A stretch of DNA of 64,000 nucleotides from Blastomussa wellsi (GCA_947652115.1 OX393570.1:4685259-4749258); one strand, 5' to 3'; shown: positions 11,901 to 50,300, numbered from the stretch's first letter. The notes: generated from the sequence alone by a model not told the origin. A program made the numbers and translations.

Positions 11901-14900
11901 TAACTTTCGCATCTGTGGATAAAACTCTAGTGTGTGGCCATTCAAATAAAAGCTATTGAGCAGTACATATATACTTTACTATGTGTTTTTGTCAATTTTG
12001 TCAAAATGAAATTCAAGCATTCTTACTTACTTTTGACTTAGCACTCTTAGGAGTGAAGGGGTTAATTCACTTCACTTCACACGAAGAGTCGCTCGGCTGG
12101 CATGCCCCCTCCGATTATAGACAAGGAAGAACCACAGACTATCGCTACTCGTCTTATTGAAGATGTTTTTAAAACAAAAAAAAAACATCTTATGTTGCTG
12201 AAGATGCTTTAGACTCCAGCCAGGAGGTTGTCACTCCCCGGGATATAAATTTTCAATTTGGTTTCTGGATTTCCACTTTTTAATAAATCATTTTCGTTTG
12301 TTCTCTCATACCCCACTCTTTAAACATAGCAAATATTCTCGTCCGGAAATGTGGCTGTGTTTTAAAGTGATGGGTATCTCAGTACTAGTACGGTGGTGCT
12401 CTGGGTCTTTTAGCCCATTCCTGCATTGTATGTCAGGTCGTATCTCCAGTGCTTGATCCATTTTTGGCGTGGATAATGCTTTAATTTGGAGCCGATTCTT
12501 TTTTAAAAACTTTTGCTTTTTCGACCTAACGGCTTTCCTCGTTTTTAATTCAATCCTTGATTGTGATTGTATAGACCCTATGCATGAGTAGTTGCCAGTT
12601 TAAAATTATTTTGTATTCATTTAAATTAGCCCTATTGACTTCGTTTTTGAGTTGGTAATTCTGATGAAGTTTTACTTTTAAACGAGGTTAGTGACGCTAA
12701 TTTAAATACAGATCTGAAAATAATTTAAAATTGGCAGTAATTTATGCATAGGGTCTATAAGCCTTGTACCTCTGTTTCTGCGCTACAATGGTCGCCTGAA
12801 GTCGTGATGAATTTTCTTTTACAACTCTTGCAAGTTTTTCACACCCTTTTCGCCATCTCATGCCTCCTAGTGCTATATTACTTTTATTAAAATTAGGAAC
12901 GGCATTCGTACGTTCACTAAAGTTGATAGCCAAAAGTAATTATATTCGTGGGGTATTTATGCATTTTCCGCCTCCATGGGGATCAAGCAACGTTTTCCCC
13001 CATAGCTTATTTAGTGGAGAGAGGATCGATGGAAATAGATCGCTATTTATGACCCCGCTTTAGTCTCCATTGCACGTAAGTACCAAAACCAAACGCAACG
13101 AATTAGACCTCGAATCAAAAACATGCAACTGGCGTCAAATGCGGGAATATCCATGTTGACCATTTTTAAAATCAGTTCTGCATTTGCTCCATGTTTGTGA
13201 TTTGTGATTTGCGAACACGGTTGGGAATACAAAGATAACCTAATGTTTGTTCTCTCATTTGCACCCTAGTACGGATTTTCCCCGAAAGATAGTAACAGCT
13301 TCAAACTGACAAAGATAACTAGAAAAGTGGCGAGTGACAATGCAGTCCAAAATGTAGCCTATGATATCTTCACCTACGTTTCAAAGTAAGAACCTTTTGT
13401 CACAGGATTAATGGGTAAAGCATTTTTTTTACTTTCGGTATCGGCAAATAATTAATGGTTACCTCATTATATTTAACTCAATAAACCGTTGGCGTTTTTC
13501 TCACGTTACAACCAAGTCGTGTTGGGCTTAGACAAATAAAAGAATGGAATCTGCAGTATCTCTAAAAACCCATCGTCATCACTAAGTATTAGGGCGCGTT
13601 CCTTTGGGATGATCCGGATCAGGATCCGAGATCACTCAGATCAGAGTGGATTCGCCGGCGCCTTTGATGCACCATGATCCCAGAGCGACCTCGGATCACT
13701 GTTCTTGATCTAGGTCATCCCTAAGGAACGCACCTTTAGATAATGCTGTTTAATACGTAAATTTTGTGATCCAAGATGTGTTTACTCATTAGTGCTTGTA
13801 TTTGACTGAGGTTTTGCAATCTAGATTTGGGAAGGTGGTGCTCTCCTCAATGAGACATTTTTCGTGTTGCTCAGTCGACTCCAGATAGCTAAACACTTTA
13901 GCACTGGGATTATTTCCAGGCACGGATCTAGGGGGAGGATGCAGGGGTTGCACACCACTCCTGAGATGATCTACGGCTTTCTAATACTGCTAGTATTCTG
14001 CTTACGTCACCCATCAGTTACGTCATTCCTTAGTGGTGCATCCCCTCTTGAGAAAAATCTCAGATCCGCCCCTGATTTCTGTTAAGAAACTCGAGCTTTT
14101 ATTGGCTACTGGTATTCCTAAGTAATTTAAATTCCTTTATCCATGTTTTACTGAAAGGAATATCAAAGGAAAAGGGTTCAATACCCCCATCCCCCCTTCC
14201 CTCCTTGGCATACCATGGTATGGATGATACCATGGTACCATGGTGTTGCACATCCGATGGTTAAAAAAGAAACATTTTCAAAATGATAAATAAGTTTTAG
14301 CTCATACTACAGACTATCCTTTTGTGTTTTTTATATATTTCAGTGCAGTCAGCGGCGGAGGTAAGAAAGTTTTTCTATACCTACCTTATTGCTTGCACCA
14401 CTATTAGTGAATTGTTTCAGTGTCACGATGAATCACTCTTATGCGTGGCTACACGCGGTATCCTCGTGAGCTCTCAAGCATATACAATTTGTTGTGTGCA
14501 TAAGCAATACCGCGAAACTGCTGGGGCATTTTATTCGTATAGCGGTCCTGGTTAAAAAGATGACATTTGTTTACCAAAATTGACCTGCGCTATCTATGAA
14601 AAACAGAGAATATTAATCCAGGATAAAATGGTTCATCGTAGGTCAGTTGGTTAGAGCGCCCGACCAGAATTTGGGAGGTCATGAGTTCGAATCCTTTTTT
14701 ATGGGTTCGCATTCTGTTGGGGACTCTGGGAGGATGGGGTTAGGGAGGGTGGAAAACAATTCTACACAACACCGGTGCTGGAAAGATGGGGTTAAGAAAC
14801 TAGACACAATGCATACACGCAACGCTTGATAAAATGAAAATAACACCATGGAAAATATGATATTCTTTCCAGCGATCGCCGCCTTCAATGTGATTTGTAG

Positions 14901-17900
14901 AGGGCCTGGGGGAAATGTGAATCAGGAAATAGGTTTGCAGACAGCCCTGCATATCGCACATGAGACAGGACATAAGTGAGTTGTCATTGATAGTTAAATG
15001 GTTTGTTATAAACGGTAATTTGAGGATTCAAATAAGTTTAATTTGTGAATAGGGTATTAACATGACCTTGAGGGATTATTGTTTATTGGCGCCAATAAGC
15101 AATAAACAATATTCCTGATAAAAGTCATGTTAATGTCATTATTATCCATATACAAGGTCAAATAACATCCTGATGACTCACAAATTTAATAATGTTTTCA
15201 AGAATACAAGTAAGAACTTACTTCGCGCTGAAAATATTATAATTGTAAAAGCCGGACCGTTATCTTCTGAGCAGGTGCAGAACTTTGCCGATATAGCTAC
15301 AAAGTCTCTGAAAATAATCGCCAATGAGCTAACAACTCGTAGATAATCAATATTTAACGAACTTACAATTTCCAGTTGATCGTCGGTGTAAAATTCCCGC
15401 TTACTTCAATGAAGTGAACGACGTTTCGCTTCTTGTAAAGACGACAAGAACTTGCTTTCTTTGTTTTTTCTGCATCGTGCTCTTGCTTCTAGCCTATCTT
15501 CAAGTCTAAATCAGAATTTTTTGTCTGTATTCTTCCCATTTATAACAAGTAGGCCGATTTTTCTATGTGAAAACTATGCGTTTTGTGTGAAACTGAACTT
15601 CAAAGCTTGCTGTTCGCTCGTACGCACCTCGATGGTTTTCCTTCTTCAAACGGTCTAAACGTAATCTGATTGGTTTAAATTCATCGCGTGAACCAATCAG
15701 CTTCAGGGCCGTTGCGGCCCGCACAGCGTGTGTTTTGACGATCAATTTGACCGAGTATGTGGATAATAATGGTATTTATATCGATGCCTATTGTTAACAA
15801 TTTCATCATTTACCTGTTCAATTTTTTCTTGGTAAGTTTGACAGTCTTTTATGAAGTCAGTGCTTTCTTTTTGACATGCAGGTATGGATGGTGTATAAAG
15901 CACCAAATGCATGGTTATTTTGCATTAATTATTTAGAGAGAGAGAGAGTGTTTTGTCACATAATTCAGAATAGAGTTGGCAATTCTCTCCCCCAATCGAA
16001 ACGGCTCTGGTATTCTTTGTTTTAATTTGTTGAATAAATATGACTTCCCTACATGTTTTCCAGTTTTGGACTCTCCCACGACGCTGGTGACTGCGCAAAA
16101 CATGCGTACATCATGAAAGCACAGCTTCCAGGCGGTGAACATGCCACAGAGTGGTCAGACTGTTCTAGAAATACGTTTCAACGTTTACTGAACGACAAGT
16201 ACGTAGAATAGAATATTCTCACACAAGTCGACTTTTATATATACTAATGCATACATTTAAATGTAAACGAGAAAAGCAATATAGAATTACGTAGGATGAA
16301 AATACTTGTGTGCCAACGTGCGTTGGCTGGCGTTCGAGCCAAGAACTGCATAGGACATGTATACAAGCGTTGAAGTGAAAGCAAACTCAATCTAGGGTGC
16401 ATTCGATTGGGAATTTCCCAAAAACGGATTTTGAAATTGGCAATTTCCTCGGATTTTGTGTTTTATTTTGAAACCCGAAATCCTTTGATAGCGTGCCTTA
16501 ATATGTGGCACGTTTGGTTAGTTTCGCCCGTAAAACAGAATTAGCCATTTTCTAAACGAGCAGGGAACTGGGTACGAACATATTTCTCTTTGGTACAAAC
16601 ATTCAGTATCGATTGAATTCCAAAAATTGGGAAGGTCATCTGAAAGAGCATCCAAAAATTAGTAAATTTACCAAATTTGACGGTTATTGGTTTAAACCCA
16701 AAGGCACGGTACACTTAGTATGGATTGGAGGGACAGGCGTCCTCCAATCCATACTAAGCTCTCTTATTTTAAAAGTGTACCATGCCTTTGCGTTAAAATC
16801 AATAACCATCACATTTGGTAAATTTACTAATTTTTGAAGGCTCTTTCAGATGACATGCCCCATTTTCAATCAATCGATATTGACTATTCGTACCAAGAAA
16901 AAATATATTTGTACCCAGTCCCTGCTCGTTTAGAAAATGGCTAAATAATATCCTATCATTTTTTGCTTCTGTTTCAGTAGGTTGATCAATTATTGATAAT
17001 TTCATGGTGTGTTTATTCTTATATTAACTGTCTCTTTTTTTTAATTGCCTGTATTTCTTTTGTCTAGTATCTATTTCTTTTGCTTTATTCCCTTTTCTCT
17101 CTTCTTCATTCCATTTTCGTTTTACTTTTTTTTCTCCATTTTCTATCCAGTTAATTCTCGTATTTTCCATAATGTCATCGATTGACCAGATAGCATCAAA
17201 GATGTCCTTTGTTCAACATATGTGTATTGTTCTTCGTTAACGCAATAAAAGGCAGGACTTTCTATTGCTTGCTTTTGGCACTTAGATAATTCTCCATGTT
17301 TATTAAGGTAAATTAGTGAGCCATGATTTTCGACACACGGGTAAAATAACGATTGCCCGTTAATTTACACTGACATACCTGTATTTCAAAACAACCACCA
17401 AGTAGGCACACAACTGGGAAAACTTTAATTGCTAGAAACATGGTTCAGTTTCGAACTCTCTTTCTCTCTGGTCAATGTGCAAGCACACAAAAGCACTTGT
17501 CATGCGTCCTTGACGTATCCGCTGACTACCACCCGAATGATTGCTTTTCAAGTGGTGAAAACGTAGAAGTTTGTTCTATCGTTTCCAACCCCTCCCTGGC
17601 GTGAACTAAGTTGATTGCGTGGCTCTGCTACATATGTTATAAAGTGACATAATAGATAAAAACGTCCTATTTACAGTCAAGTCAGTGGTGCAGTCTTATC
17701 ACGTGACGCGTTTCTCCGCAGAGCTAGATCGAGTTGTTTAAATGACGCCCCTTTTGGCGATCGCCCAACTCTTCCACCGCACTTCCGCAACAAACTTCCC
17801 GGCAACATTATTGACGGTGACAAGCAGTGTGCGGAAATGGCTTACGGGGAAGGCTGGAAAAGATATAAAACGGTATCGAGACTTATTTTTCTCCACCTTC

Positions 17901-20900: not shown

Positions 20901-23900
20901 ATAGTAAGATATTAATAAATGCAAGATATTTTAGTGAATGGAAATATGAACAACGCGCAAAATGACGCACATCACCACCACAAACGTTATCCATTCGCAA
21001 AGTTGTTACATGTTGGTGATCTCAGCCTAAGGAGATTGACCGTTAGCCGTAAAGCGGCGAAACATTTAACCGTTACACGTAAAAACTGAAAAAATACCAT
21101 TCACCGTAAAAGAAATTTAACTATAAAAACCCAATCCTTGAAGTCGGCCTCACAATCGCTTGTAATTAATTTTTTGGGTGTTTCCTTTAATTTGAAGTGG
21201 TACCAAGAAAGGCTGTCACTCGTAATTTGGTCGAAAGTGACTACCGAATATTAATGTATCGTTTAAAGAAGTTGACAGTTATGTGTGTTGCTCTTTGTCT
21301 CTAAATCTTCGATTTGGTGTTCCAAAGACCTTCGGCATTGAGGCCCTCTATATACATTAACATCTGCCATGTTGTTTATTTTTAGTCTGTGGCGTATATT
21401 GCAGAGCTGGTGCTACAGTAACACGTCTTGCAACTGTGCCGGACGGCAATAGATGCACGCGCAATAAAAAGGACTTAAGCGTCTGTATGAATGGCAAATG
21501 CAGGGTAAGTTTGTTGTTGGTATAACTTATAGAAACGTCACACGTCAAAATTTTGGTCATTGGATTTGAGAGACACTAAGGAACGATACTATTCTTTCTG
21601 GCTCGAGCTCATCGCGGTTCCTTTTCATAGCACTCCATTCGCTTACATGATGCCACCACGAAATATCATACCGGCACGAGCTCTCGCCAGAGCGAGATTT
21701 TCAGTCTCATGTAAATGTTGTATGACTGTTTTTACAGCAGACTTTAGGGCAGAATAAAACCTGGACACCAATAAAAACATTTCTCAAATTAATTAATAAT
21801 AATTAATAATTCTATAATTTGGTTTTATCAACTGGGTTGATAATGTGAATTGGCCACCGTAAAGAGATTCAAGAGCTGACGTTTCGAGCGTTAGCCCTTC
21901 ATCGAGTTAGCAAGAGACCATGATCTATCGATTGCATAATTTTAGCCCAAACGTGCGAACTTTGCGGCGCTTATAATTATTGCAAACAATTAAAGTAAAA
22001 TTGTAAAGGTGGAAATTTATAGGTAAAACAATATTACAGTCTGCCTTCAGTTTAGTTCAGGGATTTCCTTTCCTTGCCATTTTCTGTCATTCTCTGTTTT
22101 TTTAATTAACCTAAACAAATAATTTCTTACGGAGCGAGCTTTTTGACTTTTATTGCTTTTTCTTTGTTTTTTTTTAACGGTTACAACAACTATGCATACC
22201 ATGCGCATTAAGTTATTTTATTAAGCCTTTTTAACTTATATCACCTATTGCTTCCATGTACATTTTAGCGTTTTCAACTACATTTAATACATGAAATTTT
22301 ATTCCGCTTTTACCGTACGTACTTGAACGTTGTTCTTCTATTACATGCATATAGCTTATTGTATTAACACAAAATCAATTTCAAAGATAGTATAGCTGGA
22401 GTACTATTATTATGGATTTGTTATTAGCCTGTAGGCTGTGATCACGTACTGGACAGTAAAACATTAGAAGATCGTTGCGGAGTATGCGGAGGCGACGGGA
22501 ACACATGCACGAGGGTGACATCGAAATACACAGACTCCCCAAGTCTAAAGGGTAAAGAATGTTTTGTGAGATTTTCCGCTGTGTATTTCAAAAAACATAT
22601 ATATGGCTTAATATACGGCGAGGTGACCTCTGGAAACCACCAGGCTTAGTGTTGAGGCCACCTCGTACATCACAATATTTTAACAAAAGATAGTGCTACG
22701 AGTTTAACCACCTATAGTAGCAAGAACATCATCCAATGAAAGTAGATGTTCTAGAGAACTGCGAACTATCTCAGAGCATTAAATGCAAGCTAGCAAAGCG
22801 GAGTTTTCCGCCTGATTGTTGAAGAAAGTTTGTTTTAAATGATGACGTAATGATTCACGTGTAAGGTACGGCGACGCCGAGAACAACGTCGATTAAAACT
22901 TGAATTTATATTTTACCTACGAATCTCTCGATACTCTTAAGTCATGTAGTCTGTTTCTTACTGTCAAAACTATCTCAAATTTAAACAATTAGCCTTCGTG
23001 TTCACGGCAAAGAAATGTCCCAATGCTATTCTGGCGTTACAAAAAAGCATACGTGTTGTGCACACTGTTATAAGGAGGGGTTTCCTCGTTATAATAGCTT
23101 ACTTTATTGCAAATTCATCAAGTTGATTTCAATTCAAATCGCGTTTAAATGCGTACTGTTCTCTGCAAGAAAACTGAAATATGTATATTTTATTATATGG
23201 CCATGCCTCGCAAGGACTGGTCACCGAATTCGCGAATTTGATTCGCTAAAATCGATATTGACCGCGGTATATATTTTCCCATCAAGCTAGACCAGCATCT
23301 AGATCGGTTAATCATTTTGCGGTTAAAAAAAAAAACAAAAAACAAAGGGATTGACATTTTTCTACTTAACGGGATTCGAATCGGTGGAAATCTTCTGATT
23401 CTTTGAAATTTTTCGGAAAACAACCGGAGATCTTCGGAAAATCGTCGAACATCTTCTGAAAATCATCAAAAGCTTCATTATTAATATATTTATTAAATAA
23501 ACAAAATAATAATATGTGGTTGCTTGGACATATGAAATTTCTCTTCTCGTGTGGAAGTGAGCCCAGCTCACTCGTGAGATATCGAGTTACATGAAACACG
23601 AGAAGAGAAGTTTCATATTCCCACACTATGAATTATTCTATATTTATTTGCCAAATGTTTCTTAATTAAAGGTCCTGAAAACGCTGCCTTGGTGGCTGAA
23701 CTTCCTGTTGGAACTAAGGACGCTCTCTTTGTAATGGCAAATTTTACTTTTAACTTTCTTGGTAAGTACACTGACTTCACTTAGGCTGGAAAGGAATCGA
23801 ACGAAATAGAGAAGAGAAGTTCAAGAGCCTTGCCATTGTTTATCGAAATGTGATGATAATCCGCCTATAAAAATATTCACTTGTTTGGAATTAAGACAAT

Positions 23901-26900: not shown

Positions 26901-29803
26901 GATGATGATGATGATGATGAAACCGTTACGCTGTAAAAATTTCTCGTCAATCAGCCACCAAAATGTTAAGAGCTGACCACCAATCTGTGTTTTCATCCAA
27001 CCGTTACTAATAAATGCGCTCCATTTTTTCCAGGAATGTTCTGTTAGTTATTTACATTTGAATCGTATTATTGCTACAAACCTCGAGCGTAAGAGTTAAA
27101 ATTTTAATTTTAATTTTACACAGGAACTTTGATAATTGCGGAGTTACCATCCCTTTCAAAGAGGGCTCCTAATAGGAAATGCTTTACATTTTTCAGGAAT
27201 CAAAAGACGAGATGTACGCTGTATTAGAGTAGATGATGAAAGTCCTGCTAGTAACTCGGCATGTCCTGGAAAAATGCCAGCTGTTGAATCATGCAATACT
27301 CAACCATGCGAGGCAAGGTAAGCCATTCACATCACAGGCAGCCAAAGCTCAGGCGAGTGGTAGTAGGCAAGAGGTGCCGTGCGAGATTACGCCAGCGGTT
27401 TTCACGAAAATTTCCTTGAACACCACTACGTAACTACAGACTGACCCAAAGATGACAAAGTCGGTTCATGTTATCGATTTTTTTTTAAATTAAAGGCTGA
27501 ATGATGCCGCAAAATCATTGCATTTCTTATTGTCACACAGCCAACTCGTGGTTCTGCGTACTACCGCTTACCTACTTGCTCGTTACGTTAGCTCGGCCTT
27601 GCCTTAAAGCTTCCTCGAGAGTATCGATATCCGCCTGTTCTCCTGTTTACTCTGGCTTACATTGTGTCCTTATTTCCGTACGTTCGTCAGATGGGTGTTC
27701 TCGAAATGGACGCCATGTTCGAAAACCTGTGGACGTGGAAATCAAGAGCGTAAACTGCAGTGTCTAGAAGAAGTAGCCCCAAATGATTTCAGAGAAACTA
27801 TGTCGTGTTCGACACCGAAACCACAAGAATCCACTTCTGCTGTTTGCAATAGGTATCCATGCCCAGCAAAATGGCACACGCTGGCGTGGTCTGCGGTAAG
27901 CTGTTTTTATTTATAGTAGAAGATTGCTGGAGGATCCTTGAACGCTAAACTATCAGTGTCAACGCCGTGTTAATACTAAAAGGAAGCAGCTGGTGTCCGT
28001 CAAGAAAATTGAGAAATCAGTGTAATCAAACCGTGGCGGTAAATTTGGTACGCAGGAAACCCGGAATGCCGTTTGGTTCATTTTCGTCCCCAAAGACGGC
28101 AGTACTTGGTCAGTACCAAGAATCGAGACGTCTTCTGGCCGCCTCCAACGCTGAAAGTCCGCAATTCACGGACTCATTTTCAAATCTGACAAATTTGATG
28201 GCTAAAACCTACAAAACAAGAACGCTGCGAAAGCTTAAAAATTGGGTCCGGCCAGAGGTGTTAATCCCTGTTGCAAACCATAAGGATCCTGCAATTTAGA
28301 TACCATATATGTATTTGGTTATAGCATCGGGTTCCATCAACCAGAATTTATTCTGACCATCATGCGTAGTCAAACAGTGTCCACATATACATGCATGATT
28401 CGAAACTAGCGAAAGGCTTTGACTGGTAGGTAAAAGCACATTTTAAGTCTAGACATTACGGGTTGGAATGTTCTGGTCCGTCCGTTTTGGAAATCCGGCA
28501 CGATCAAGCAAGTCATCATTTTAACGTAATCCATGAACGCTATGTTATAAACACATTTTGTTTTTATTTTGCAGTGCTCAACACAGTGTGCGATTGGATC
28601 AAAACTTCGTCAGGTCCTATGTTCACGAGTCGATGAAGCTGGAAACTTTTCCATTATCGATGACGAATTCTGTCGATATTTTATCAAACCTGCAGCACAA
28701 TCGTCGTGTAATGAAGACAGTCCTTGTGGGCGTAAGAAACTTTTTTTAAACACGCAAAATCGCGCGATTGGAATACTGTGCCTTAGCTATAATATGCTTT
28801 GGAATGAAGTGGAACGCTATAAATTTTTAGATTAGAGGATTTGAGCCTAAATTTGACCTGCAGAACATGCAGTTTCAAATTAAATTATTCACTTTCATTT
28901 GTGAACTTTCTTTATTAATATATATTAAAGTTATTTTGAGTTTTTGAGTGCAACATCTAATCAGTTACTAAGGTTTTTGTTTACACGTTCAGGTCACTCC
29001 CTATTGTTGAAAAATTTTGGTTTGATCAATATTACATATCACGGGCACTGGTGGCTCTATTACCCGGGAGGTGGGGGTACCCCTATAAATGACAGGGGAA
29101 ATTAGCAGGGGAAGTCGTGGAAACTTTTGAAATTATCCCTCATAAGGTGAAAATTCCCTGACCTATTTCCTTTTCTTCTGTTAACTCAGCGAGCCCTCCC
29201 CTCTGCCCACATGACCATCATTGTTCTAATGGAGGAACTTGTGTACCGGACCCCGCTGGGTACAAGTGCATTTGCGACAGAGGATTTGAAGGCATGGAGT
29301 GCGAGAGTAAGCTAAAAGTGACAAAGAATTACCTTCAATAACTAAACGTGCGAGCAAAGCCTGACGTTCTTTCAGCGAAAATGATTTCGAAATTTATAGC
29401 ATCACAATCAGGCAAAATGCAGCAACATAATTTTAATAACTAACCTTTATCAGGAGCGTTCGGAAATTTGTCATTTACGTGTATGTCCTCTGGTAAAACA
29501 CGAGCATTAGCTAATGAGCGCGCGAAAATTTCTACACTTATGGTAAAATATGCTATCTAAGTCCCGGTATCCAAACCTCCGTTACGGTTACGAATGCCTT
29601 TGTTTTAACTTGAGTAATTGTTGCTGCGTTTGAGATTAACCTGTCACCCGTATTTCAAATGTATGACTCAACTCGTGTACTCTATATTCTATAATTTGGT
29701 TTTATCAACTGGGTTGATAATGTCAATTGGCCACCGTAAAGAGATTCAAGAGCTGACGTTTCGAGCGTTAGCCCTTCGTCGGAGCGATTTTATTTTGTTA
29801 TAC

Positions 29804-29847
<44 letters not shown>

Positions 29848-32048
29848 GCTACTCTATATTCTTTTACTGGAAAATTATAATCGCACAAAATGTCCCGTTC
29901 CCAGTTGCCTTCTGTTGATAGATTGGTTGCACCAGTATTATCACACTGGTTATGGGTTCAAGAACTGCCTCACCACATTATGCTTAAATTCCTCCACTTT
30001 TCTTCCTTTCAGTCAAACTGGATCCATGTGAGAAGAATCCTTGTTCAAATGGTGGTACATGTTCGCCGGGTGTCAGTCATCATTACGACCACATTTGTCA
30101 GTGTCCACCGCTGTTCACGGGAAGAAATTGTGAAAGTAAGTGCTTTATTGAAGGATAACATAATTGCCTTGCAGTGAAAACCGGAAAACATACTCATAAA
30201 TTTAATAGCGATCATAGCCACAAGGTAAGCGCATTGCCAATTGATAATCTGATTATTTTTATTTTGATTATTTTCCTAACACTTGTTCACAGCTAAGATA
30301 ACAGCCTGTATGAGCAGCCCCTGTCTTAATGGGGCTACCTGTGCTGACGACGGTTCCTATGACAAATACACCTGTACGTGCTTAGAAGGGTATCAAGGGC
30401 CGCGGTGCCAAGGTAAATATTAGCCGACTTTTGCTAACGCTACACTACCACAATTAAGATGATTTCAAGTCCATACTGCGCAATCTCCGCCTTCAGTGTT
30501 TATGTGAGGCTCACATGAAAGAATGTATAGTCAAAATGAAACTTACCTTTTCTTCATTATTGACAACAGATATCCTAGGCTTGTAAAACAATAATAAAGA
30601 GTAGAGGAATGTTGACGGTATTCCAAACCGACGTTTCAGCTCATTCCGCCCTCGTAAACGAAACGACCCGCAATGGCGAACTCCAAATTTTCATGTACGC
30701 TATTACCGAAGCTTGTGTAACACATATCAACGGAAATGTGAAGAAATTCCGAGACAGCGCAGTACGTGCGGACTGGTTTGAGGGCCAAAGTCCATCTTAT
30801 CTGTTGCCTCTCTTTTCGCACTACCTTCCTCTACGTAAGTTTCTTGTCCCGATTTTATTTTGACATGCCTGATTCTTTCACGTTTCACAGTTTCCAAATT
30901 GTATCCTATTGGATGTTTTAATCATCATGCAAGTATAATGCCGTCACTGGAACAACGGAAAAGAGAACTGGACATTAACAACGTCGCCTCCGCAGTTATA
31001 AAGTGTGCAGAACTCGCCCAAGGCATAGGCTATGATTACTTTTCTGTAGGGCTGAAGGGAATATGCTACTCTGGTCCAAACGCAGGCGAAACGTATTTCA
31101 AGAAGGGCCCGGCCTCCAAGAAAAAATGCAACTCAAACGGTGTCGGGAAAAAAGGCGCATCGGTTGTTTACACTTTTGGTAAGTCTCTGTTTAAACAGAT
31201 GATAGAGGCAATACTTAACATACAAGCAACAACTGAATCATGTTGTAGACGATTTTGCTTGTCTCGGGGTGTTTTATTACTTGTTTATTGCTTTCTGCCT
31301 TATTAGAAAAATATTTAGAGATTTCCTTAACTTTTAAAATATCGTGACAGAACTCCTTTAACGTTATTTGATCATTTTGGGGCAAGAAGTCAGGAACCTG
31401 GAAACAAATTACTTGACCACTAAAACACGACGGACAAGAGTCGAGAACATGTTGTTGTTGTTCTTTAATAATCCTCATGTAATATTCATCTTCGAAATTC
31501 TATATCCATGAGAGTTTTTCGTGTTGGGTTTATAATTGTAATTCACTGTTTTCTACCGAACTAATAATTATCTGTTATTGGCTATGTTTTTACCTTGGAA
31601 TATATAGGTTTTGGTTTAAATTTTTCTTCGACTATTTTTCTAAACCAGTTTGCCTTTGTTTATTTTTCATTCACAATTAAAAATAACACTAGTTTGATTT
31701 TAATCACGTCTTGTAGAGCCAGTTCCCGCCTACGAGAAATTGGGCTGCTTCCGTGCCGCCGCCAAGAAAAAACCTAAGCCATTGCGAACCAAATACATGA
31801 AGTTCAGTAACCAAGGCAACAAGAAGCAGCAAACCACTATCGATCAATGTGCACGTGTTGCACACGCCAAAGGCTTCACATATTTCGCAGTGCAGAATAA
31901 AGCGGAATGTTGGTCGGATGTAAACGCAGAGGATAGCTACCAAGCGCTGGGTCCTTCTGAAAACTGCAACAATGGAGTAGGATTGAAAGGGGCGAACATG
32001 GTTTATCGATTTACAGGTAAGATTAGAAGTTCGTTACATCTGTGGTAA
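6038..32048 (+). CDS. Secreted ADAMTS-type metalloproteinase, paralogue 1 (gene span, 29 coding exons)
   Basis: This gene encodes a secreted zinc metalloproteinase of the M12B/ADAMTS type, acting outside the cell on matrix or matrix-bound substrates. The joined exons give about 1300 residues in the order: signal peptide (1-20), propeptide (about 30-230), metalloproteinase (about 245-425), disintegrin-like (425-515), TSP1-1 (about 525-580), Cys-rich (580-685), spacer (685-800), TSP1-2 to -4 (805-982), three EGF-like modules (983-1102), and two unassigned four-Cys modules (1103-1298). The zinc site HETGHNFGLSHD gives ligands His378, His382 and His388 with Glu379, and Met400 is a candidate Met-turn. 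The fusion to EGF and four-Cys modules is unlike vertebrate ADAMTS proteins, and I see no PLAC domain. Exon order and phases match paralogue 2 downstream. All junctions keep frame. The start is the only in-frame ATG before a hydrophobic leader. The 3' end is uncertain: either read-through to TAA at 32046-32048 or splicing at 32016. Confidence 0.85.
6840..6868 (+). CDS. Paralogue 1 exon 2: leader/propeptide link
   Basis: A 29-nt exon between tttacag and gtagat, reading on from exon 1 in phase 1 and ending in phase 0. Its counterpart in paralogue 2 has 26 nt and the same phases, which supports this very short exon. Confidence 0.7.
7236..7302 (+). CDS. Paralogue 1 exon 3: N-terminal propeptide
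   Basis: 67 nt between tttcag and gtagtt, phase 0 to 1. It encodes [15 protein letters not shown] and following residues. The matching exon of paralogue 2 is also 67 nt and shares the xLHxxMTxxE pattern. Confidence 0.8.
7778..8358. mobile_element. Tandem pair of MITE-like repeats
   Basis: Two copies of a unit of about 285 bp (7778-8060 and 8071-8358) lie side by side in the same orientation. Shared blocks include gagcccgagttttct, gcgaatagtcaacgaggc, ttgttttagtagaaac and gaaccaatcagattca. Each copy has inverted sub-repeats around gaatagtcaac / gttgactatcgc. The second copy ends about 50 bp before the acceptor of exon 4. Confidence 0.75.
8410..8720 (+). CDS. Paralogue 1 exon 4: M12B propeptide
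   Basis: 311 nt after tttttag, phase 1 to 0. It encodes the reprolysin-type propeptide: [18 protein letters not shown] near the start and [14 protein letters not shown] near the end, matching the family pattern of a Gly/Ser-Val-Ala-Ser stretch. A basic REKRS site lies inside it and could be cut by a furin-like protease. Confidence 0.88.
8846..9130. mobile_element. MITE-like element with inverted ends
   Basis: An intronic stretch beginning ttattccatgagcgcgcgttggatat; the inverted match catatccaacaagcgcgagtggaataa follows about 90 bases later. The gcgcgcgttgga block recurs at 57755. It is non-coding. Confidence 0.55.
9307..9499. mobile_element. MITE with ctggttttcac inverted ends
   Basis: The left end ggctggttttcactagc is mirrored at the right by gctggtgaaaaccagcc. 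About 190 bp, no coding capacity, in the intron between exons 4 and 5. Confidence 0.7.
9630..9798 (+). CDS. Paralogue 1 exon 5: C-terminal propeptide
   Basis: 169 nt, phase 0 to 1. It encodes a segment with [15 protein letters not shown] and [10 protein letters not shown], the usual ADAMTS propeptide ending (xFxxxPLP then HxVYxR). The YRR|S dibasic site is shared with paralogue 2. Confidence 0.88.
9866..9920. repeat. TCAG/TCGG microsatellite
   Basis: Imperfect tandem copies of a 4-bp unit (cagt/cggt) in the intron after exon 5. Confidence 0.8.
10106..10299 (+). CDS. Paralogue 1 exon 6: start of metalloproteinase domain
   Basis: 194 nt after tgcag, phase 1 to 0. It encodes [18 protein letters not shown], the first beta strand region of the catalytic domain (family pattern VALVADxxLV). 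A cysteine and two prolines replace the usual Ala-Asp; paralogue 2 keeps the common form. There is no RxKR site just before the domain. Confidence 0.85.
10626..10795. mobile_element. Hairpin MITE, copy 2
   Basis: A nearly identical copy of 5195-5354, again with inverted ends (aatagaccaattccgatata / tatatcggaattggtctatt). The ends are better preserved here than in copy 1. It lies in the intron between exons 6 and 7. Confidence 0.85.
11222..11455 (-). mobile_element. tRNA-derived SINE, minus orientation
   Basis: Read on the minus strand it starts with a pol III B-box-like cgggttcgaaccctag, then the conserved body (ggacattgtgttgtgttc, gcgatggactagcatcc, agtagaaatactcctagtcg). Copies of the body occur at 19722-19945 (minus) and 52905-53170 (plus). 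A SINE of this general type is common in cnidarian and other invertebrate genomes; that part is background knowledge. Confidence 0.75.
11501..11587 (+). CDS. Paralogue 1 exon 7: metalloproteinase
   Basis: 87 nt, phase 0 to 0, the same length as its counterpart. It encodes [20 protein letters not shown], the helix-turn region of the family (vaxixxdxsiGxxixxxvxr). Confidence 0.88.
12570..12759. mobile_element. MITE with tatagaccctatgcat inverted ends
   Basis: Perfect 16-bp ends at 12570-12585 and 12744-12759, continued by an imperfect stem (ttaaaattatttt against aataatttaaaa). A lone end-like sequence, atagaccctatgcaat, occurs at 50092. Confidence 0.8.
13270..13385 (+). CDS. Paralogue 1 exon 8: metalloproteinase
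   Basis: 116 nt after ccctag, phase 0 to 2. It covers the middle of the catalytic domain, ending YDIFTYVS. In most ADAMTS proteins this segment carries LTRxDIC; here that cysteine is absent, as it is in paralogue 2. Confidence 0.8.
13591..13738. mobile_element. MITE with gcgttccttTGGGATGA inverted ends
   Basis: The left end gcgttcctttgggatgat is mirrored by gtcatccctaaggaacgc at the right, around a core rich in gatc motifs. About 148 bp, non-coding, in the intron after exon 8. Confidence 0.7.
13918..14078. repeat. Dispersed repeat with ggatctaggggg / cagatccgcccc ends
   Basis: A sequence starting cacggatctagggggagg and ending ctcagatccgcccctgat. A related stretch occurs at 40387-40530. No coding capacity. 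Confidence 0.6.
14344..14360 (+). CDS. Paralogue 1 exon 9: 17-nt microexon
   Basis: Bounded by tttcag and gtaaga, entering in phase 2 and leaving in phase 1. It encodes about A-V-S-G-G just before the zinc site. Paralogue 2 has a 14-nt exon with the same phases at the same place, which makes both credible despite their size. Confidence 0.7.
14637..14790 (+). mobile_element. tRNA-like SINE fragment
   Basis: It contains a box-A-like taggtcagttggttagagcg and a B-box-like gagttcgaatcc in the spacing of a tRNA. A possible five-pair anticodon stem exists, but acceptor and T stems do not pair, so this is a tRNA-derived repeat rather than a working tRNA. Confidence 0.6.
14873..14975 (+). CDS. Paralogue 1 exon 10: catalytic site
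   Basis: 103 nt after tttccag, phase 1 to 2. It ends with [14 protein letters not shown], holding zinc ligands His378 and His382 and catalytic Glu379. The third histidine is in the next exon, so the active-site motif is split by an intron, as it is in paralogue 2. Confidence 0.93.
16064..16198 (+). CDS. Paralogue 1 exon 11: third zinc ligand and Met-turn
   Basis: 135 nt, the same length as its counterpart, phase 2 to 2. It encodes [10 protein letters not shown] (third ligand His388), then AYIMKAQ as the likely Met-turn and [14 protein letters not shown] at the domain end, a typical ADAMTS pattern (WSxCSxxxxxxFL). Confidence 0.93.
16541..16944. mobile_element. 404-bp foldback element
   Basis: A long imperfect inverted repeat centred near 16742: ttagccattttctaaacgag at the left end mirrors ctcgtttagaaaatggctaa at the right, and the inner arms tagtatggattggagg / cctccaatccatacta are exact. 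Open frames across it are by-products of the fold. It lies within the intron after exon 11. Confidence 0.85.
17722..17872 (+). CDS. Paralogue 1 exon 12: start of disintegrin-like region
   Basis: 151 nt after ctccgcag, phase 2 to 0. It encodes [10 protein letters not shown], then a proline-rich link, then [16 protein letters not shown], matching the ADAMTS pattern cLxdxP...LPGxxydxdxQC. Confidence 0.9.
18162..18254 (+). CDS. Paralogue 1 exon 13: disintegrin-like region
   Basis: 93 nt, phase 0 to 0. It encodes [13 protein letters not shown] and [10 protein letters not shown], the usual CxxLwC...xxaaDGTxCg pattern. Confidence 0.9.
18310..18520. repeat. 10-bp tandem repeat (acgagccaac / acgggccaac)
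   Basis: About 20 imperfect copies of a 10-bp unit in the intron between exons 13 and 14, immediately left of a foldback. Open frames across it are repeat artefacts. Confidence 0.85.
18541..18704. mobile_element. Foldback element
   Basis: gggccctttgcacgaccca at the left is mirrored by tgggtcgtgcaaagggcc at the right, and further inside gctggtgagcaagc mirrors gcttgctcaccagc. About 164 bp, non-coding. Confidence 0.8.
18869..19014 (+). CDS. Paralogue 1 exon 14: end of disintegrin-like region and TSP1-1
   Basis: 146 nt, phase 0 to 2. It starts WCIKGKC (family pattern WCxxgxC) and continues into a thrombospondin type 1 repeat, [20 protein letters not shown], with the WSxWSxxxxC core. Confidence 0.93.
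19089..19445. repeat. Dispersed repeat, cccagggggtactcc type, copy 1
   Basis: It begins with acccccagggggtactcc and holds several atagggtatc blocks. The same ends occur in opposite orientation at 20255-20590 and 51592-51945. Such repeats are frequent in anthozoan genomes as far as I recall; the family name is not known to me. Confidence 0.65.
19722..19945 (-). mobile_element. tRNA-derived SINE, second minus-strand copy
   Basis: It shares the body blocks gctgggatgctagtccatcgc, ggggttactcccagcagtaaa and cggtacctatttata with the SINE at 11222-11455. The tRNA-like head at the right end is eroded. Confidence 0.7.
20126..20186 (+). CDS. Paralogue 1 exon 15: end of TSP1-1
   Basis: 61 nt after tttcag, phase 2 to 0. 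It encodes [20 protein letters not shown], the last part of the first TSP1 repeat (GxxCxGxxxxxxxCN). Confidence 0.85.
20255..20590. repeat. Dispersed repeat, cccagggggtactcc type, copy 2
   Basis: An inverted relative of 19089-19445 and of 51592-51945, with tatagcgctaatattt, aaaactcgacgaag, cataccct and a right end reading atacaagggagtaccc. Confidence 0.6.
20813..20903 (+). CDS. Paralogue 1 exon 16: start of Cys-rich region
   Basis: 91 nt after ttttccag, phase 0 to 1. It encodes [20 protein letters not shown], matching the ADAMTS Cys-rich start (fRxxQCxxxn). Confidence 0.88.
21386..21504 (+). CDS. Paralogue 1 exon 17: Cys-rich region
   Basis: 119 nt, phase 1 to 0. Blocks [20 protein letters not shown] and VCMNGKC follow the family pattern CxLxCxxxgxxxxxxxxvxDGTxC...vCvxGxC. 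Confidence 0.9.
21815..21905 (+). repeat. Dispersed repeat, atcaactgggttgataatgt type, copy 1
   Basis: The run from tttggttttatcaactgg to tttcgagcgttagcccttc is repeated almost exactly at 29691-29790. I recall this sequence as common in coral genomes; it may be one end of a retroelement. Confidence 0.7.
22428..22551 (+). CDS. Paralogue 1 exon 18: end of Cys-rich region
   Basis: 124 nt, phase 0 to 1. It encodes [20 protein letters not shown] and GDGNTC, the hallmark ADAMTS junction to the spacer (vGCDxxlxSxxxxDxCGvCgGdxxxC). Confidence 0.95.
23202..23310. repeat. Dispersed repeat related (inverted) to 46960-47090
   Basis: Blocks tatatggccatg, gaattcgcgaatttgatt and atcgatattgaccgcggt appear in reverse complement at 46960-47090. 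Non-coding, in the intron between exons 18 and 19. Confidence 0.6.
23531..23617. repeat. Inverted repeat with ctcttctcgtgt arms
   Basis: A 22-bp arm at 23531-23552 pairs with 23596-23617 with one mismatch. The acacgag ends resemble the foldback at 56369-56536. Confidence 0.75.
23672..23761 (+). CDS. Paralogue 1 exon 19: spacer
   Basis: 90 nt after attaaag, phase 1 to 1. It encodes [17 protein letters not shown], equal in position to the spacer strand of other ADAMTS proteins (vtxIPxGAxxIxv). Confidence 0.85.
24050..24890. repeat. CCAT tetranucleotide satellite, about 840 bp
   Basis: Nearly uninterrupted tandem copies of catc with interspersed gccatc and tggccatc variants, ending in a looser block with cttcaaacattcatcc. 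Because the unit is 4 bp without stop codons, long open frames appear in several frames on both strands; none is a gene. It lies in the intron between exons 19 and 20. Confidence 0.95.
25096..25259 (+). CDS. Paralogue 1 exon 20: spacer
   Basis: 164 nt after tccacag, phase 1 to 0. It encodes [13 protein letters not shown], a lysine-rich stretch HKKKKP and an ending LKVVV-like strand. The basic patch could bind glycosaminoglycans; paralogue 2 lacks it. Confidence 0.88.
25336..25870. mobile_element. Foldback-type element, copy 1
   Basis: The left end ttttttataagaac with gaacgtattaagaacattcc is mirrored at the right by gaacatcttaagaatgtttt and gacgttcttataaaaaa. Parts recur in the same order at 37948-38292 (atctggtaaatttatg, aacctctatgttca, gcatcagagcaagt). 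Confidence 0.7.
26304..26445 (+). CDS. Paralogue 1 exon 21: end of spacer and start of TSP1-2
   Basis: 142 nt, phase 0 to 1. It begins YVKKSDKSG, passes [10 protein letters not shown], and enters TSP1-2 with [16 protein letters not shown], a clear WxxCSxTC core. Confidence 0.88.
26875..26922. repeat. GAC/GAT trinucleotide repeat
   Basis: Imperfect gacgacgac units turn into nine or so gat copies. Intronic, between exons 21 and 22. Confidence 0.85.
27197..27317 (+). CDS. Paralogue 1 exon 22: rest of TSP1-2
   Basis: 121 nt after tttcag, phase 1 to 2. [13 protein letters not shown], then [20 protein letters not shown]: the C-terminal cysteines of the repeat (CN...PC). Confidence 0.88.
27691..27895 (+). 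CDS. Paralogue 1 exon 23: TSP1-3 and start of TSP1-4
   Basis: 205 nt after cgtcag, phase 2 to 0. [18 protein letters not shown] opens TSP1-3, [10 protein letters not shown] closes it, and WHTLAWSA begins TSP1-4. Confidence 0.9.
28575..28731 (+). CDS. Paralogue 1 exon 24: TSP1-4
   Basis: 157 nt after ttgcag, phase 0 to 1. It starts [16 protein letters not shown] and ends SCNEDSPCG, completing the fourth TSP1 repeat. Confidence 0.88.
29190..29306 (+). CDS. Paralogue 1 exon 25: EGF-like module 1
   Basis: 117 nt after actcag, phase 1 to 1. It encodes a six-cysteine EGF-like module: [18 protein letters not shown], then DRGFEGMEC. The symmetric 1-1 exon can be inserted or lost without shifting frame. 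No counterpart in paralogue 2. Confidence 0.93.
29691..29870 (+). repeat. Dispersed repeat, atcaactgggttgataatgt type, copy 2
   Basis: It repeats 21815-21905 and extends to cgacgcagcaccacag and gtttctttagaaacttaccc. Lies in the intron between EGF exons 25 and 26. Confidence 0.7.
30013..30135 (+). CDS. Paralogue 1 exon 26: EGF-like module 2
   Basis: 123 nt, phase 1 to 1. [14 protein letters not shown], then [14 protein letters not shown]: all six EGF cysteines are present. Confidence 0.93.
30293..30412 (+). CDS. Paralogue 1 exon 27: EGF-like module 3
   Basis: 120 nt, phase 1 to 1. [19 protein letters not shown], then [15 protein letters not shown]: a third complete EGF-like module. Confidence 0.93.
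30891..31178 (+). CDS. Paralogue 1 exon 28: four-Cys module A
   Basis: 288 nt after ttcacag, phase 1 to 1, about 96 residues. Pattern: YPIGCF, then a 35-40 residue link, [48 protein letters not shown]. Four cysteines are conserved with module B and with paralogue 2. I do not know a named family. The spacing is reminiscent of small PAN/WSC-like disulfide modules, but that is only a guess. Confidence 0.85.
31717..32016 (+). CDS. Paralogue 1 exon 29: four-Cys module B
   Basis: 300 nt after cttgtag, entering in phase 1. It starts [12 protein letters not shown], then [45 protein letters not shown]: the same pattern as module A. A strong donor, gtaaga, follows at 32017. Either it is used (an acceptor at 33241-33243 would give one Glu codon then TAA, with aataaa at 33395) or it is read through to TAA at 32046-32048, adding about ten residues. 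Confidence 0.85.
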
Positions 32049-44300: not shown

Positions 44301-47300
44301 AACCTGCAGCACAAACCTTCTCCAATGACTTGTTATATGACAGCAGAAACAACTAGCATTGTCCTTGCGAATACATTTTAAAAATCAGTCCAGTATGCTG
44401 GTAGACCTGGCACAGCTTGCTGAACCAATTAGCTATTGCCATTGTTTCCTTGCAAAGATTCAATTAACACTTTTTATAGGCCTCTACGTTCGGGATTGAC
44501 TAGCTGTCGTGAATCTCCATCGCTTATTTTTCGGAGGTTGCAGGGGTGGGGGGGAGGTCTCCTACTAACTTCGGTAATTGTCCTCAAATTGTGGTACCTG
44601 TCTGTCTACTTTTTTCAGTTCCTGAATACGAGGTCGCTTTACCGTTTGAGGCCAACGATGAAGGTAGCTTTCTCACATATTCACTAAACCATCGATCAAA
44701 ACGAAGTCTTGCTGACGATGATGACGACGATGTGACGCCATACCGTTACGTGATCAACGTCAAAGGAGAAAAACTGGATCTTCGGGTTAGACGAAACACG
44801 AAATTCATGGCTCCTGGTCTTCAGCTGGAAACACGTGATGAAGAAGGCCGGCCATTAACTAAACCAGTGTCCAGAAATTCGTTCGTAACTGGAAAGCTAG
44901 CTTCGGACCCACATTCCATGGTGGTACTGAGTGTCACTGACGGATTGGTAAGACCAGGACAAAGTGCATCATTGCATTAAAAGAACTGAATACAGAAAGG
45001 CTGACCGTACATTTGGGGTTAACTAATATATTTTTCCAATATTTCGTCGGGCACGGCCCGACTTCTTCAGGGATTTGATTCAACCTGAGAAAAATCGTTA
45101 CAATCTGAACAACCAAGACAAAAGGCTATAATATTATAATCCCAACTTTACGGTCAGCCTTTCTGTATTCAATTTTTTTAATAAGTTATATTTGCTGATC
45201 AGATCCAACCAGGATCCGGTGCTTTTGTATTGTCCGTTGGCCCTTTCTGAAATCTGTAGACAGTGTTCTTCAAAGTTGCATTAACAAAAGTTTTCCTTGA
45301 TTCTTACATAAAAGTTCGCGAACTCTTCTGGTTGGCTTAGAAAAATTCGAAACCGACGTGAGTCAATCAAATCGCGATTAATCCTGGCTAACGAATAGTA
45401 CTGACTTGCAACAAGGCGGATGTTATTGCTATGTTATTGTTTTACAGAAGGGTATAGTGAAACGATCACATGACACTTTTGTGATCCACCCTCTGCCTGC
45501 ACGTCTGGTTCAACATTTCGAAAGCAAGGAAGGCGCAATGCCACATTTGGTTTATAGACGATCATCCCAGGAAGCCATCGAATGTCAAACCAAACCAGGT
45601 CAGAGGCGCGCACATATATTAATTTGATGGTCGAACGCGAATCAGGTTAAGAGCCTTCGAGTGGCATTTTGCGGTTGCCTCTAAAAAGTTGTTTACTTTT
45701 TATTTAAAGTAATTATTAATGAACATTAGCAGAAAACCGTAAAATCAAATCTGTCAGGTTGCATCTAGACTGTTCACAGTCTCCTATTTTTCCGTGTAAT
45801 AACCGAAGTCCAACACATCGTTTGACGGTCGGTTTGTTTCTCGAGACGAGCGAAACCTGCAGGATAGAGAACAAAACTCCCGCCGTCTCCGCACTCCAGT
45901 GCCCCTGCCCAAGGGAGTTTTGTTCTCTCTGCGCTCGTCTCGACCAACTTGGAGGTCTGTCGAACGATACGTTGGACCTCGGCTATTATACGGAAAATAG
46001 GAGACTGTGAACAGTCTAGGTTGCATCATATATACAGAGAAAGCGCATCGAAGTGAGAATATAAAACTGGAAGGGAGCTCATAAATCTTTTATTGTTTTT
46101 CTTTCTCTTCAACTACATTAATTAAAAAAAGTCGCCTCAGCAAAGAGAGATTTGAGCCCTGTTGAGTCAGCAAGCAAGCTGCAAGATGATAGCGACATTG
46201 GAATAACAAATAAGTACGTGGAGGTTGCTTTACTCGCTGATGAACAATATGTTGTCAACCATGGGAACAAGACAGAGGAATCCCTCTTACTTATAGGAAG
46301 TATTGTGAGTGTTAAAAAGGTTACAAAGTTATTTAAAGCAAATTATTCGGAAATTTATAGTTAAGAATGAAATGAACCGACTAAATCAAGGGATCTCAGT
46401 GGTCGAAGAAACCATGGATGTAAGGCAAAGGAAAACGATGCACTCAGAATTGACAAGAAGTTCTGATTATTGATGGAGAAGTTCTCAAATGACTTAAATG
46501 AGCAAAGAAATCAACAGTTTTTGCGTGCCGGTGTATCGACTTCTATCTTTTATTCTACAGGCAGATGCAATTTACCAAGATGCGACAATTGGAAAAATAA
46601 AGATCAATTTCGTAATTACTCGCCTTGTCCTTGTTACAAATAAAGAGGTATGTGAACGCAGTGAGGTCTGTACTCACGACCGAGGTCAAGATTCCCTCAT
46701 ACAGACCGACCAAGCTCGGTTAATAAGATGTTTATTACATGGCCAAACGGAAACTTAAATTTGCTTAACGAGACTGTTTCCTTCTCGCTGACGTTTTGCA
46801 GAATTGTTTGCGAACGGCAATGAGCTGAACCACTGGCTGAACTTAAATTTGCAAAAGTTTTGTCGTATCTTTACTTTTCATTCTTGGCAAGTGTTTTCAA
46901 TTTTCCGTTTAGTATTAGGGGGCAATGTGTTCCTGTTTTGTTTGTAACTTTCTGACCCCAAAATGCAACCGATCTAGATGCCGGTCTGGATGGGAAAATC
47001 TAGACCGCGGTCAATATCGACTTTAGCCAATCAAATTCGTAAATTCGCTAGTTTCCAGTCCACGTGAGACACGGCCATATAATAATGATTAATAGTGATT
47101 GGGTCACAAATGCTATACGAGATTAATTGAGGTCAAGCATAGGTTTTTACAGTTTGTATCATTTTAGCAAGGTTGTGCGTAGTCTAAAGTTAACCCTTCG
47201 GACGTCCAGGGGCACCCAACGAACAAACTGTATTCTTTTACCCAAATGAATGAAAATATATGATATTAAAACATTAACTGGTGTTCTTGAGTGTTGCTGG

Positions 47301-50300
47301 GAAAAATTTATCTGTTCCTTAAATTTTTTCAGCACATGATCTATAAATTTTTCCCTGCCGGCGCCAGCAATTAGAACAAACAACAAACGAGCGAAAATGC
47401 GACTGAAAACCGTTGAAATCCAGTCTTCTCAACGAGACTCGAGCCTTCGTCGAGAAGTTTCTTCAGTCGCCTTTCCGAGTTTCAATCAGCCAGCGCAAAA
47501 AAAGTATTTTTTCAGTGACAACTCCAATGAAAAAACATGTACTGAAACATATTGCCAGCCAGCAACATTTGGGCTGGGCAACACATAAACTGAGAAACAG
47601 ACTCGTTGGGTGCCCCTGGACGTCCAAGCTGTTTTAAATACCTCGGCCGTATTCATTTTGGAGAGGGTGGTAACGTTGACGGCAATCCTCCTTTAAAGCT
47701 TCGCTCTGTTGAGACACAAACTAATACCCGATCCACACCAAAGCTTAAACACGTTTAAAAGCAGTATAGTTAAACACGGTTTAAAAATGTTTTTGTTCGT
47801 GAAAGTTACTAACTGATGATTGCTGACTTCAAATTTGGCACAATGAAAGAACACATTAGAACTTACTCGAATCCTATGTAAAATTCAGTCTTTCAGTCTT
47901 CTGTTGCTTATTTTCATTTTGTCTAACCTGGTTTAACTAAACAAGTTTTGTTGGTGTGAATGGCGTATACGTATTTTTCATTTAGTAGATAACCCTGAGC
48001 TTTCTCCAAGAGGCGAGAGATTTTTAACGATTGGTTCGGATGTTGAATCAACTGCTATACCCCACTGCACTACCCTGGACCTTCGCTTTTTTACTTCAAA
48101 TGCAAACTGCTGAAGCACAGCAAGCCTAAAAAAATAGGAGCTCCAAGATGCTCTATGGCCATCAGAAGGCCGCTTCTAATGCCATCATAATCAGTATTTA
48201 GATTAGTTAGATTTATTTAAGATTGCTCCTTGTAAACCTAGCTCGTTAATTCAGTCTTTTCTGAGGCTGCCAGAGAGTTGTAATAAACTACTTTACTTTA
48301 TCTTAATCCGACAATGATGCCAAGATTTAACTATTTCTTGTTACAGCTTGGTGTTGATCCTTCTAATTCAAGTATCAGACATCGTAGAGTTATCTCGGAT
48401 TTAGCTAAATGGGCTCGAAGAAACAACAAACATGATGAATCTGATCCATTGCAATTCGACGTAGCTTCCCTTATCCGTAGGTAAGTAACGTATTGAAATG
48501 CTCAGGTGAGTTCAAGTTGCGGTTTTATCGGGGTTTCAGTAACGAACTTTCTAAACACGACAAAGAAGGACAAAACCATATTATTTATCTGTTCCTTTTT
48601 GCCAGCACATGATCCATTATTTTTTCTCATCCAGCAACTATGATTACTATACAACCAACAACAAACGCGCGCGGAATTGGCACTGAAATCCGTTGAAATC
48701 TAATCTAATTCGGCCAGTGCGTCAGTTGTTTTGTTTTCTCATAAGAGACGACTGGGGTCGAGTCAGGACGGGCAGTTTGATTTTTAAACCAACCACAGTC
48801 TGTCGATGGTCACATAAGTAGTTGTAGCTAACACCTTGTATGAGCCGATATTCCGCAGCAAGACCACGTTAAGACGAACCCGGTGTAAGACGTCTGATAT
48901 TTGGTTTAGATCCGCAGAATGCGTAGCCTGCGTGCTGTAGTCTACTATTTGCGCAGGCTACAGAATGCGGCAGTCTTGACGGTTGTGGATTCGACGGCAG
49001 ACGCGCGACGCTTCCGAACAGTGTTGGTTGCCTAGCAACATTTGATCGACTTGGCGCCTACGAACTTTTCATTTTCTGTCACCCTTTAATAGTTGTATGC
49101 GTACATTGACACTAAATGCTATATCCACGATGTGCTTTTTTCGTGTTATTTGCAAAATTACTGAGTAATCCAAATGAACACAAATTTCTTAGGCAGAAAA
49201 TAAGTTGATACAAGCAGTCAATATAAGTTTTGACTAATCATTTATTACTATTTTCACTTTTATCTTTAAAGTGGATCAAATAATGGTAAGTTGAAGCATT
49301 TCTCTCATCTTTATTATTTCAGATCAATCAATTGATTTCCAATTTATGAATTACCCAAAAACTAATAAGTTTTTTTTTGTTTCTGCTATTTTTTGCGTAA
49401 TTTCAGGTTTAGCAGTGTTTAAAGGAATTTGCCATAGGGACAATATTGTCAGCGTGGTGGGAGAAAACGGTCTCCAGACTGCTTATACCATCGCACATGA
49501 AATAGCGCACAAGTAAGTAAACGCCGAGACTGCTATATGAAAGAGACGGATTTCTGATCTCAACCCAATATTTTTAACCATCAAGGCCTTATTTAGGCTA
49601 GTACACTGTAAATGTAAGTTTTATTTATTTTAAGTATTTTGGCCAACAGTGTTAGCCATCAAGGTGTTTGTATTTTAAGGCGGGGATAAACCTGAATGCC
49701 TTCGTTCCGTCGGCATTTAAAATGGGTTTAATGCAAATACGTCGTTTTGCGTTTCAAGGAATGCCAACACCCGTAGCTCAAAACACCAATCAATGTTTTG
49801 TACATTTTTGGATAATTTTTGGGTTTATGATGATAATGATAATGATAACAATGATGATGCGTTTTGAGATAATATATGTAGATGAATAATTGTTTTTATG
49901 CCAAACTAATTTCGTTTATAAATTTGCCTTTTTCACAGCCTCGGTGTAGGTCATGATTCTCAAGGAAACAATTGCTCTAATTTTGTCAATCTTATGTCTA
50001 CGGTCCTACAAGGAGGGGTTGGGTCGGTGGAATGGTCATCGTGCAGCATGGCGAGAATTCAAAACTTTCTAATGTAAGATTTTAGTCGCAATAGACCCTA
50101 TGCAATTAATTGATTATTTTGTCTTAAAGATTTTAAGTCAAAGTAAATCAATGTATGGAGTTTTGAAGCCCTACTTCAAACTACTGGAAAGTTACAGGAA
50201 CATTTATATTAGCAAAAACAATAATCAATTGTTCTTAAACAATGCAAAAAATGCAACATTTTTTAAGTTGTCTAATCAAGACAAAACGTAAGCACATTTT

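Follow-up and report, generated by a model that had tools for sequence, protein, structure and literature searches.

Two tandem genes for ADAMTS-like metalloproteases in a 64,000-nucleotide stretch of the Blastomussa wellsi genome (the window; G000:C16:4685259-4749258, in a genome of 367.8 Mb and 124 contigs) carry C-terminal copies of a four-cysteine module that we identify as a WSC-fold domain with two of the four WSC disulfides left. We give identity and disulfide scheme together a probability of about 0.87. Coordinates without a contig name refer to the whole 64,000-nucleotide stretch. A sequence-only reading of the window had described the module and assigned it to no named family. The answer on the family is an ordinary one, WSC (PF01822), and the twist is that the modules form a numerous WSC branch with a reduced number of disulfides that is often missed by the standard model. 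What survives of the impression of something unnamed is this four-cysteine branch, often overlooked by Pfam annotation, and not the family itself.

Module copies and their relation to WSC

30891..31178, plus strand: module 1 of gene 1 (A-type, our own label), a four-cysteine WSC-like domain in one phase 1-1 exon
31717..32016, plus strand: module 2 of gene 1, a four-cysteine WSC-like domain in one phase 1-1 exon
61553..61825, plus strand: module 3 of gene 2 (A-type), a four-cysteine WSC-like domain in one phase 1-1 exon
63979..64000, plus strand: opening 22 bases of module 4 of gene 2, the remainder lying outside the window (match at G000:C16:4749236-4749538)

WSC was the best Pfam family for all four modules. 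Modules 2 and 4 scored above the curated WSC cut-off of 27.8 bits (31.4 bits, E 2.2e-7, and 33.2 bits, respectively), and WSC was detected at E <= 0.01 in 34 of 43 module sequences. When 30 four-cysteine modules were compared with 16 eight-cysteine WSC domains of the same genome by hhalign, the probability was 98.4 and the E-value 1e-14; 50 shuffles gave at most 15.75, compared with 75.2 for the real alignment. The four-cysteine profile also matched an eight-cysteine WSC copy of the same genome (L004) at E 5.7e-6, and this copy was dropped from the four-cysteine set. A comparison of predicted structures, proposed beforehand as a check, placed the model of copy 3 with WSC, its fold being PAN-like with WSC rather than Apple geometry. 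These results indicate common descent of the modules with eight-cysteine WSC domains, as judged from their sequences, and do not support the view that no named family fits.

The three complete copies are real. Each of modules 1-3 is encoded by an open exon that is flanked by an AG acceptor and a GTAAG donor, begins and ends in phase 1 and is a multiple of three in length, and each contains exactly four cysteines. Our own profile of the module, built with copies 1-3 included, scored copies 2, 3 and 1 at 106.9, 93.6 and 92.3 bits, and the next among the 20 window rows listed at 4.1 bits. A genome search with a module of the database protein P0001, which is independent of that profile, found copies 1, 2 and 3 at E 5.9e-8, 2.7e-11 and 1.2e-4, respectively. 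The short partial copy at the window edge is also genuine: its exon runs past the edge to give a full module (L009), and P0001 joins a copy-3-like module to a copy-4-like module in the same order as modules 3 and 4. The description of each copy as a single phase 1-1 exon holds for modules 1-3, but the edge exon seemingly ends in phase 0 (our own reading) and some genome copies appear to be interrupted by introns (C16:4059822 and C16:4058749, both matched only in part).

Positions 61995-62275, which had been read as a diverged copy, were rejected: their score, 2.4 bits (E 29) when searched with all open reading frames (ORFs) of the window and 3.2 bits alone, is at chance level, and they are without the GCF start, contain five cysteines in another arrangement and a stop at the end, and have no counterpart between the two modules of P0001. 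In gene 2, repeated TTAACGG-like units (GGTTAACGGTTAACG) occur at 62700-63250, in the interval that separates module 3 from module 4.

Retained cysteines and predicted disulfides

The cysteine-rich domain (CRD) of yeast Wsc1 (PDB 7pz2), a PF01822 domain with eight cysteines, contains the disulfides C27-C86, C90-C98, C49-C69 and C53-C71 (PMC9024836). The modules differ in having four cysteines, and they lack both the CGG motif and a stretch of 8 columns in loop L5. In the profile-profile alignment, by our own reading, the retained cysteines align to C27, C49, C69 and C86, and C53, C71, C90 and C98 are replaced by a non-cysteine residue or a gap (the gap spans the C90 stretch, and a non-cysteine residue stands at C98). 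A small MAFFT alignment with one eight-cysteine sequence paired the second cysteine with C53 instead. We assign the second cysteine to C49 because it is 20 residues from the third in 30 of 30 copies and in 17 of 20 further copies, which equals the C49-C69 spacing in 13 of 15 parsed eight-cysteine copies, whereas C53-C69 would be about 16; L036, which has ten cysteines and is within the set of 16 eight-cysteine domains, was left out of these counts. From the aligned positions we deduce that the bonds C27-C86 and C49-C69 would be kept and C53-C71 and C90-C98 lost, together with the CGG loop. That two whole bonds are lost and two kept is supportive but not decisive alone, because 6 of the 70 ways of retaining four of eight cysteines keep two complete bonds.

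Kremen is a kringle-WSC-CUB Wnt co-receptor. Its WSC domain (PDB 5fws, 5fwt, 5fwu, 5fwv) contains eight cysteines, compared with four in the modules, and is not on a protease.

Four cysteines were found in all 34 complete rows of the module alignment (43 rows, of which nine are without the N-terminal part), and in a set of 30 genome copies that includes one incomplete row, the same four columns hold cysteine in 29, 30, 30 and 30. Among a further 20 copies, 19 had four cysteines and one (L056) had six when read by alignment; a quick pattern alone matched 16 of the 20. The positions equivalent to C53 and C71 were never cysteine in the 47 copies read outside the window (27 chosen by the four-cysteine profile from fetched loci and 20 taken from the genome matches described below). 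The CGG motif (C98-G100, with the C90-C98 bond) is absent from the window copies, none of the three having a cysteine after the C86 equivalent. The two extra cysteines of L056 (G000:C2:20531149-20531568) are at new positions (YPCFG and NAC) and possibly form a replacement disulfide.

Several results weigh against the WSC identification or its setting on proteases. Although the Pfam comparison named WSC for every copy, module 1 (19.6 bits, E 1.1e-3) and module 3 (16.0 bits) were under the curated cut-off. The top row of a phmmer search of PDB with copy 2 was Wsc1 (7pz2) at E 0.46, which is not significant alone, and the four-cysteine profile found no WSC structure among PDB sequences at E <= 1; because of the latter result, our confidence in identity and disulfide scheme was lowered from 0.9 to 0.87. 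Foldseek gave no row at E <= 1e-3, the best being 1.7e-3. An aromatic residue (W, F or Y) at the equivalent of position 70, part of the functional cluster of Wsc1, is kept in just 17 of 30 copies, so the Wsc1 binding surface is not simply transferable to the modules. Finally, at C4:24.21-24.22 Mb only cysteine-rich and TSP1 exons lie upstream of a module pair, and no catalytic exon was seen in the 20 kb upstream. Searches of NCBIfam with the modules and of phage records gave no match.

It is very improbable that the module is a PAN/Apple domain proper, convergent on or ancestral to WSC-like sequence. HGF NK1, factor XI, plasma kallikrein, an Eimeria PAN module and a leech anti-platelet protein, all of which we take to be PAN/Apple chains, do occur in the structural list, but lower down, and both this list and the profile-profile comparison speak against such an assignment. 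WSC and PAN/Apple domains (PF00024; HGF NK1, factor XI) have the core fold and the helix-to-strand disulfide C49-C69 in common (PMC9024836). Even less credible is a new, unnamed cnidarian family categorically distinct from WSC, which would account for the missing CGG motif and half of the WSC cysteines, the two of three window copies under the cut-off, the PDB sequence result and an array copy (L051, one of three additional genome copies tested) without a Pfam family at E <= 1, but is contradicted by the top Pfam family, the fold matches and the profile-profile comparison, all of which indicate WSC, and by the match of the four-cysteine profile to L004.

Host proteases and spread through the genome

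Both module-bearing genes are ADAMTS-like, gene 1 by Pfam and gene 2 by paired exon ORFs, and they are paralogs. The M12B propeptide, reprolysin zinc site, ADAMTS cysteine-rich region and TSP1 repeats of ADAMTS proteases were all found in the host, and PF01562, PF01421, PF19236, PF00090 and PF19030 were above their cut-offs in gene 1. Gene 2 was assigned through its pairing with gene 1 rather than by Pfam: thirteen matching exon ORFs, plus the modules, occur in the same order (best E 4.4e-24), and three further pairs, short or out of order, look like chance. On this comparison, genes 1 and 2 are tandem ADAMTS paralogs.

8352..8741, plus strand: gene 1 M12B propeptide ORF (Pfam Pep_M12B_propep, E 4.1e-17)
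14833..14975, plus strand: gene 1 catalytic exon, taken from the start of its ORF up to the donor, with half of the zinc site (the first) at its end
22428..22646, plus strand: gene 1 ADAMTS cysteine-rich ORF (ADAMTS_CR_3, E 8.2e-10, a piece joined to a piece of ORF 21361-21522)
27608..27913, plus strand: gene 1 ADAMTS-type TSP1 repeat ORF (Pfam TSP1_ADAMTS, E 3.6e-11)
30013..30135, plus strand: gene 1 EGF exon, phase 1-1, immediately before module 1 (Pfam EGF, E 1.9e-8)
44513..61289, plus strand: gene 2, tandem ADAMTS paralog up to modules 3 and 4 (paired exon ORFs)
44513-44977, plus strand: gene 2 propeptide ORF
49295-49513, plus strand: ORF containing the gene 2 zinc exon
55139-55270, plus strand: gene 2 cysteine-rich ORF
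58737-59177 and 61113-61289, plus strand: gene 2 TSP1 ORFs

Joining 14833-14975 to 16064-16198 gives the zinc site of gene 1, HETGHNFGLSHD; a slightly longer earlier join of both ORFs matched Reprolysin at E 2.9e-5 and 24.6 bits, above the cut-off. The zinc site of gene 2, by our own reading of the DNA, is HEIAHNLGVGHD, with the HEIAH and LGVGHD halves meeting at the splice. The homolog P0041 has the order EGF, module 1, module 2 with nothing intervening. An exon assumed at 30640-30834 was rejected, since P0041 runs from EGF directly to module 1 and the exon has no Pfam match. To judge from their missing introns, P0041 and P0001 appear to be spliced products. Within gene 1, 24062-24891 contains about 202 ATCC-type tetranucleotide units, with the effect that all three frames of the plus strand stay open over some 300 codons, which is not coding evidence.

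To our knowledge, the module is not part of vertebrate ADAMTS proteins. Among cnidarians, two Hydra zinc-metalloproteases of the thrombospondin repeat (TSR) set (XM_002168659 and XM_002157460) have WSC domains and hypostome expression, but differ in the presence of MAM domains (PMC4820225). Nematostella Nv326, listed as "TSP1, WSC super family", combines TSP1 and WSC in one protein and differs in that no protease domain is listed in the available text (PMC4877951). A Nematostella trypsin-WSC combination has been published (PMC6767649), and sea anemone venom lists include WSC proteins (PMC6627431). A survey of cnidarian TSR proteins reported a large ADAMTS repertoire, and a word search of the main text available for it did not find "WSC" (PMC5446238). 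No description of a four-cysteine WSC branch, or of WSC on ADAMTS, was found in the literature searched, which omits most subscription journals.

About a hundred module copies are present in the genome. A search with the second module of P0001 gave at least 122 matches at E <= 1e-3 in 48 clusters (30-kb rule); 150 of 170 candidates were scored, and repeat counts are lower bounds. The 122 include partial matches, 93 being 210 bases or more in span, as well as some that contain stops and some weak ones close to the threshold. The largest clusters contain at least 20, 15 and 14 matches (C19:16009357-16063376, C1:41468560-41513005 and C1:1735009-1753563, respectively). Several copies of the C19 cluster are arginine-rich and end in GGPWANDVY or GGPWANQVY. 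Only 17 of the 122 matches coincide with the 39 matches of PF01822 at the same threshold, both lists depending on a loose first-pass search. Sorted by hand, the 39 comprise 16 eight-cysteine copies, 19 four-cysteine copies and four fitting neither pattern. Precomputed PF01822 annotation was present on 13 of 40 homologs, which were found through the four-cysteine profile and whose cysteine pattern is thus partly selected.

In a tree of 29 four-cysteine and five of nine eight-cysteine copies, from which the incomplete L019 was omitted, a branch with 99/97 support separated all 29 four-cysteine copies from the eight-cysteine ones. Seven first-position modules grouped together (99/96), and three second-position modules did so more weakly (88/82), without module 2 of gene 1. 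These separate groups of first- and second-position modules suggest that the module pair may be ancestral and was copied together with its gene. At C4:24.16-24.17 Mb and C16:0.11-0.14 Mb, module pairs are preceded by exons for an ADAMTS-type zinc site, cysteine-rich region and TSP1 repeats, and the sole ADAMTS_CR_3 match in the genome (C16:4064896) precedes split module matches on the same strand by about 5 kb. EGF, SRCR and uromodulin D8C exons also occur near modules; from strand and distance, the SRCR and uromodulin D8C exons appear to be parts of the module-bearing genes, and at L014 EGF shares an open frame with a module. A module-module-EGF-EGF block at L014 (G000:C16:111000-120500) is tandem-duplicated, apparently recently, with module copies that are identical or nearly so.

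Proposed role and meaning

As paired C-terminal ancillary domains of secreted ADAMTS metalloproteases, the modules would serve after secretion as an exosite or anchor. By binding a partner, either a glycan or a protein, in the extracellular matrix or on a surface, they would bring the zinc protease at the N terminus to its substrate. We consider this role somewhat better than an even bet. We infer that the module proteins are secreted, bind ligands and are targeted, and the modules probably help steer secreted proteins to their targets. As single exons of symmetric phase, they would be easily duplicated and shuffled.

That the module binds matrix or carbohydrate, as suggested earlier, is plausible in view of two precedents: WSC proteins from a root fungus have been described as lectins that bind glucans (PMC9252488), and the Kremen WSC domain contacts Dkk1 (PMC9024836). 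Either ligand class may therefore apply. A narrower role for the same domain, binding a protein partner or itself and not a glycan, overlaps the exosite or anchor role, which leaves the ligand open, and falls a little short of even odds. Besides the Kremen contacts, the CRD-dependent clustering of Wsc1 and the lack of an apparent glycan pocket (PMC9024836) favour it, as does the separation in the tree between first-position and second-position modules from several ADAMTS loci, and the fungal glucan-binding lectins count against it.

It is unlikely that the large arrays are a fast-evolving recognition repertoire for binding symbionts or microbes, with the ADAMTS copies a side branch. The big clusters on C19 and C1 and the SRCR exons near one module (L020) fit such a repertoire, SRCR being a class used in recognition.

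With the WSC identification, the "unknown domain" becomes a fold with a testable disulfide scheme, belonging to a WSC branch that multiplied after the loss of two of its four disulfides. Annotation with PF01822 misses many of its copies, among homologs and genome matches alike. More tentatively, this two-disulfide branch, often overlooked by Pfam annotation, may have expanded to at least 100 exons, been shuffled onto proteases and beside EGF, SRCR and uromodulin-like exons, and come to constitute a large, unrecognised extracellular recognition set, some members of which would direct ADAMTS proteases to glycans of the matrix or of microbes. A dedicated four-cysteine profile would permit re-annotation of the secreted proteins of such animals and tests of ADAMTS targeting.

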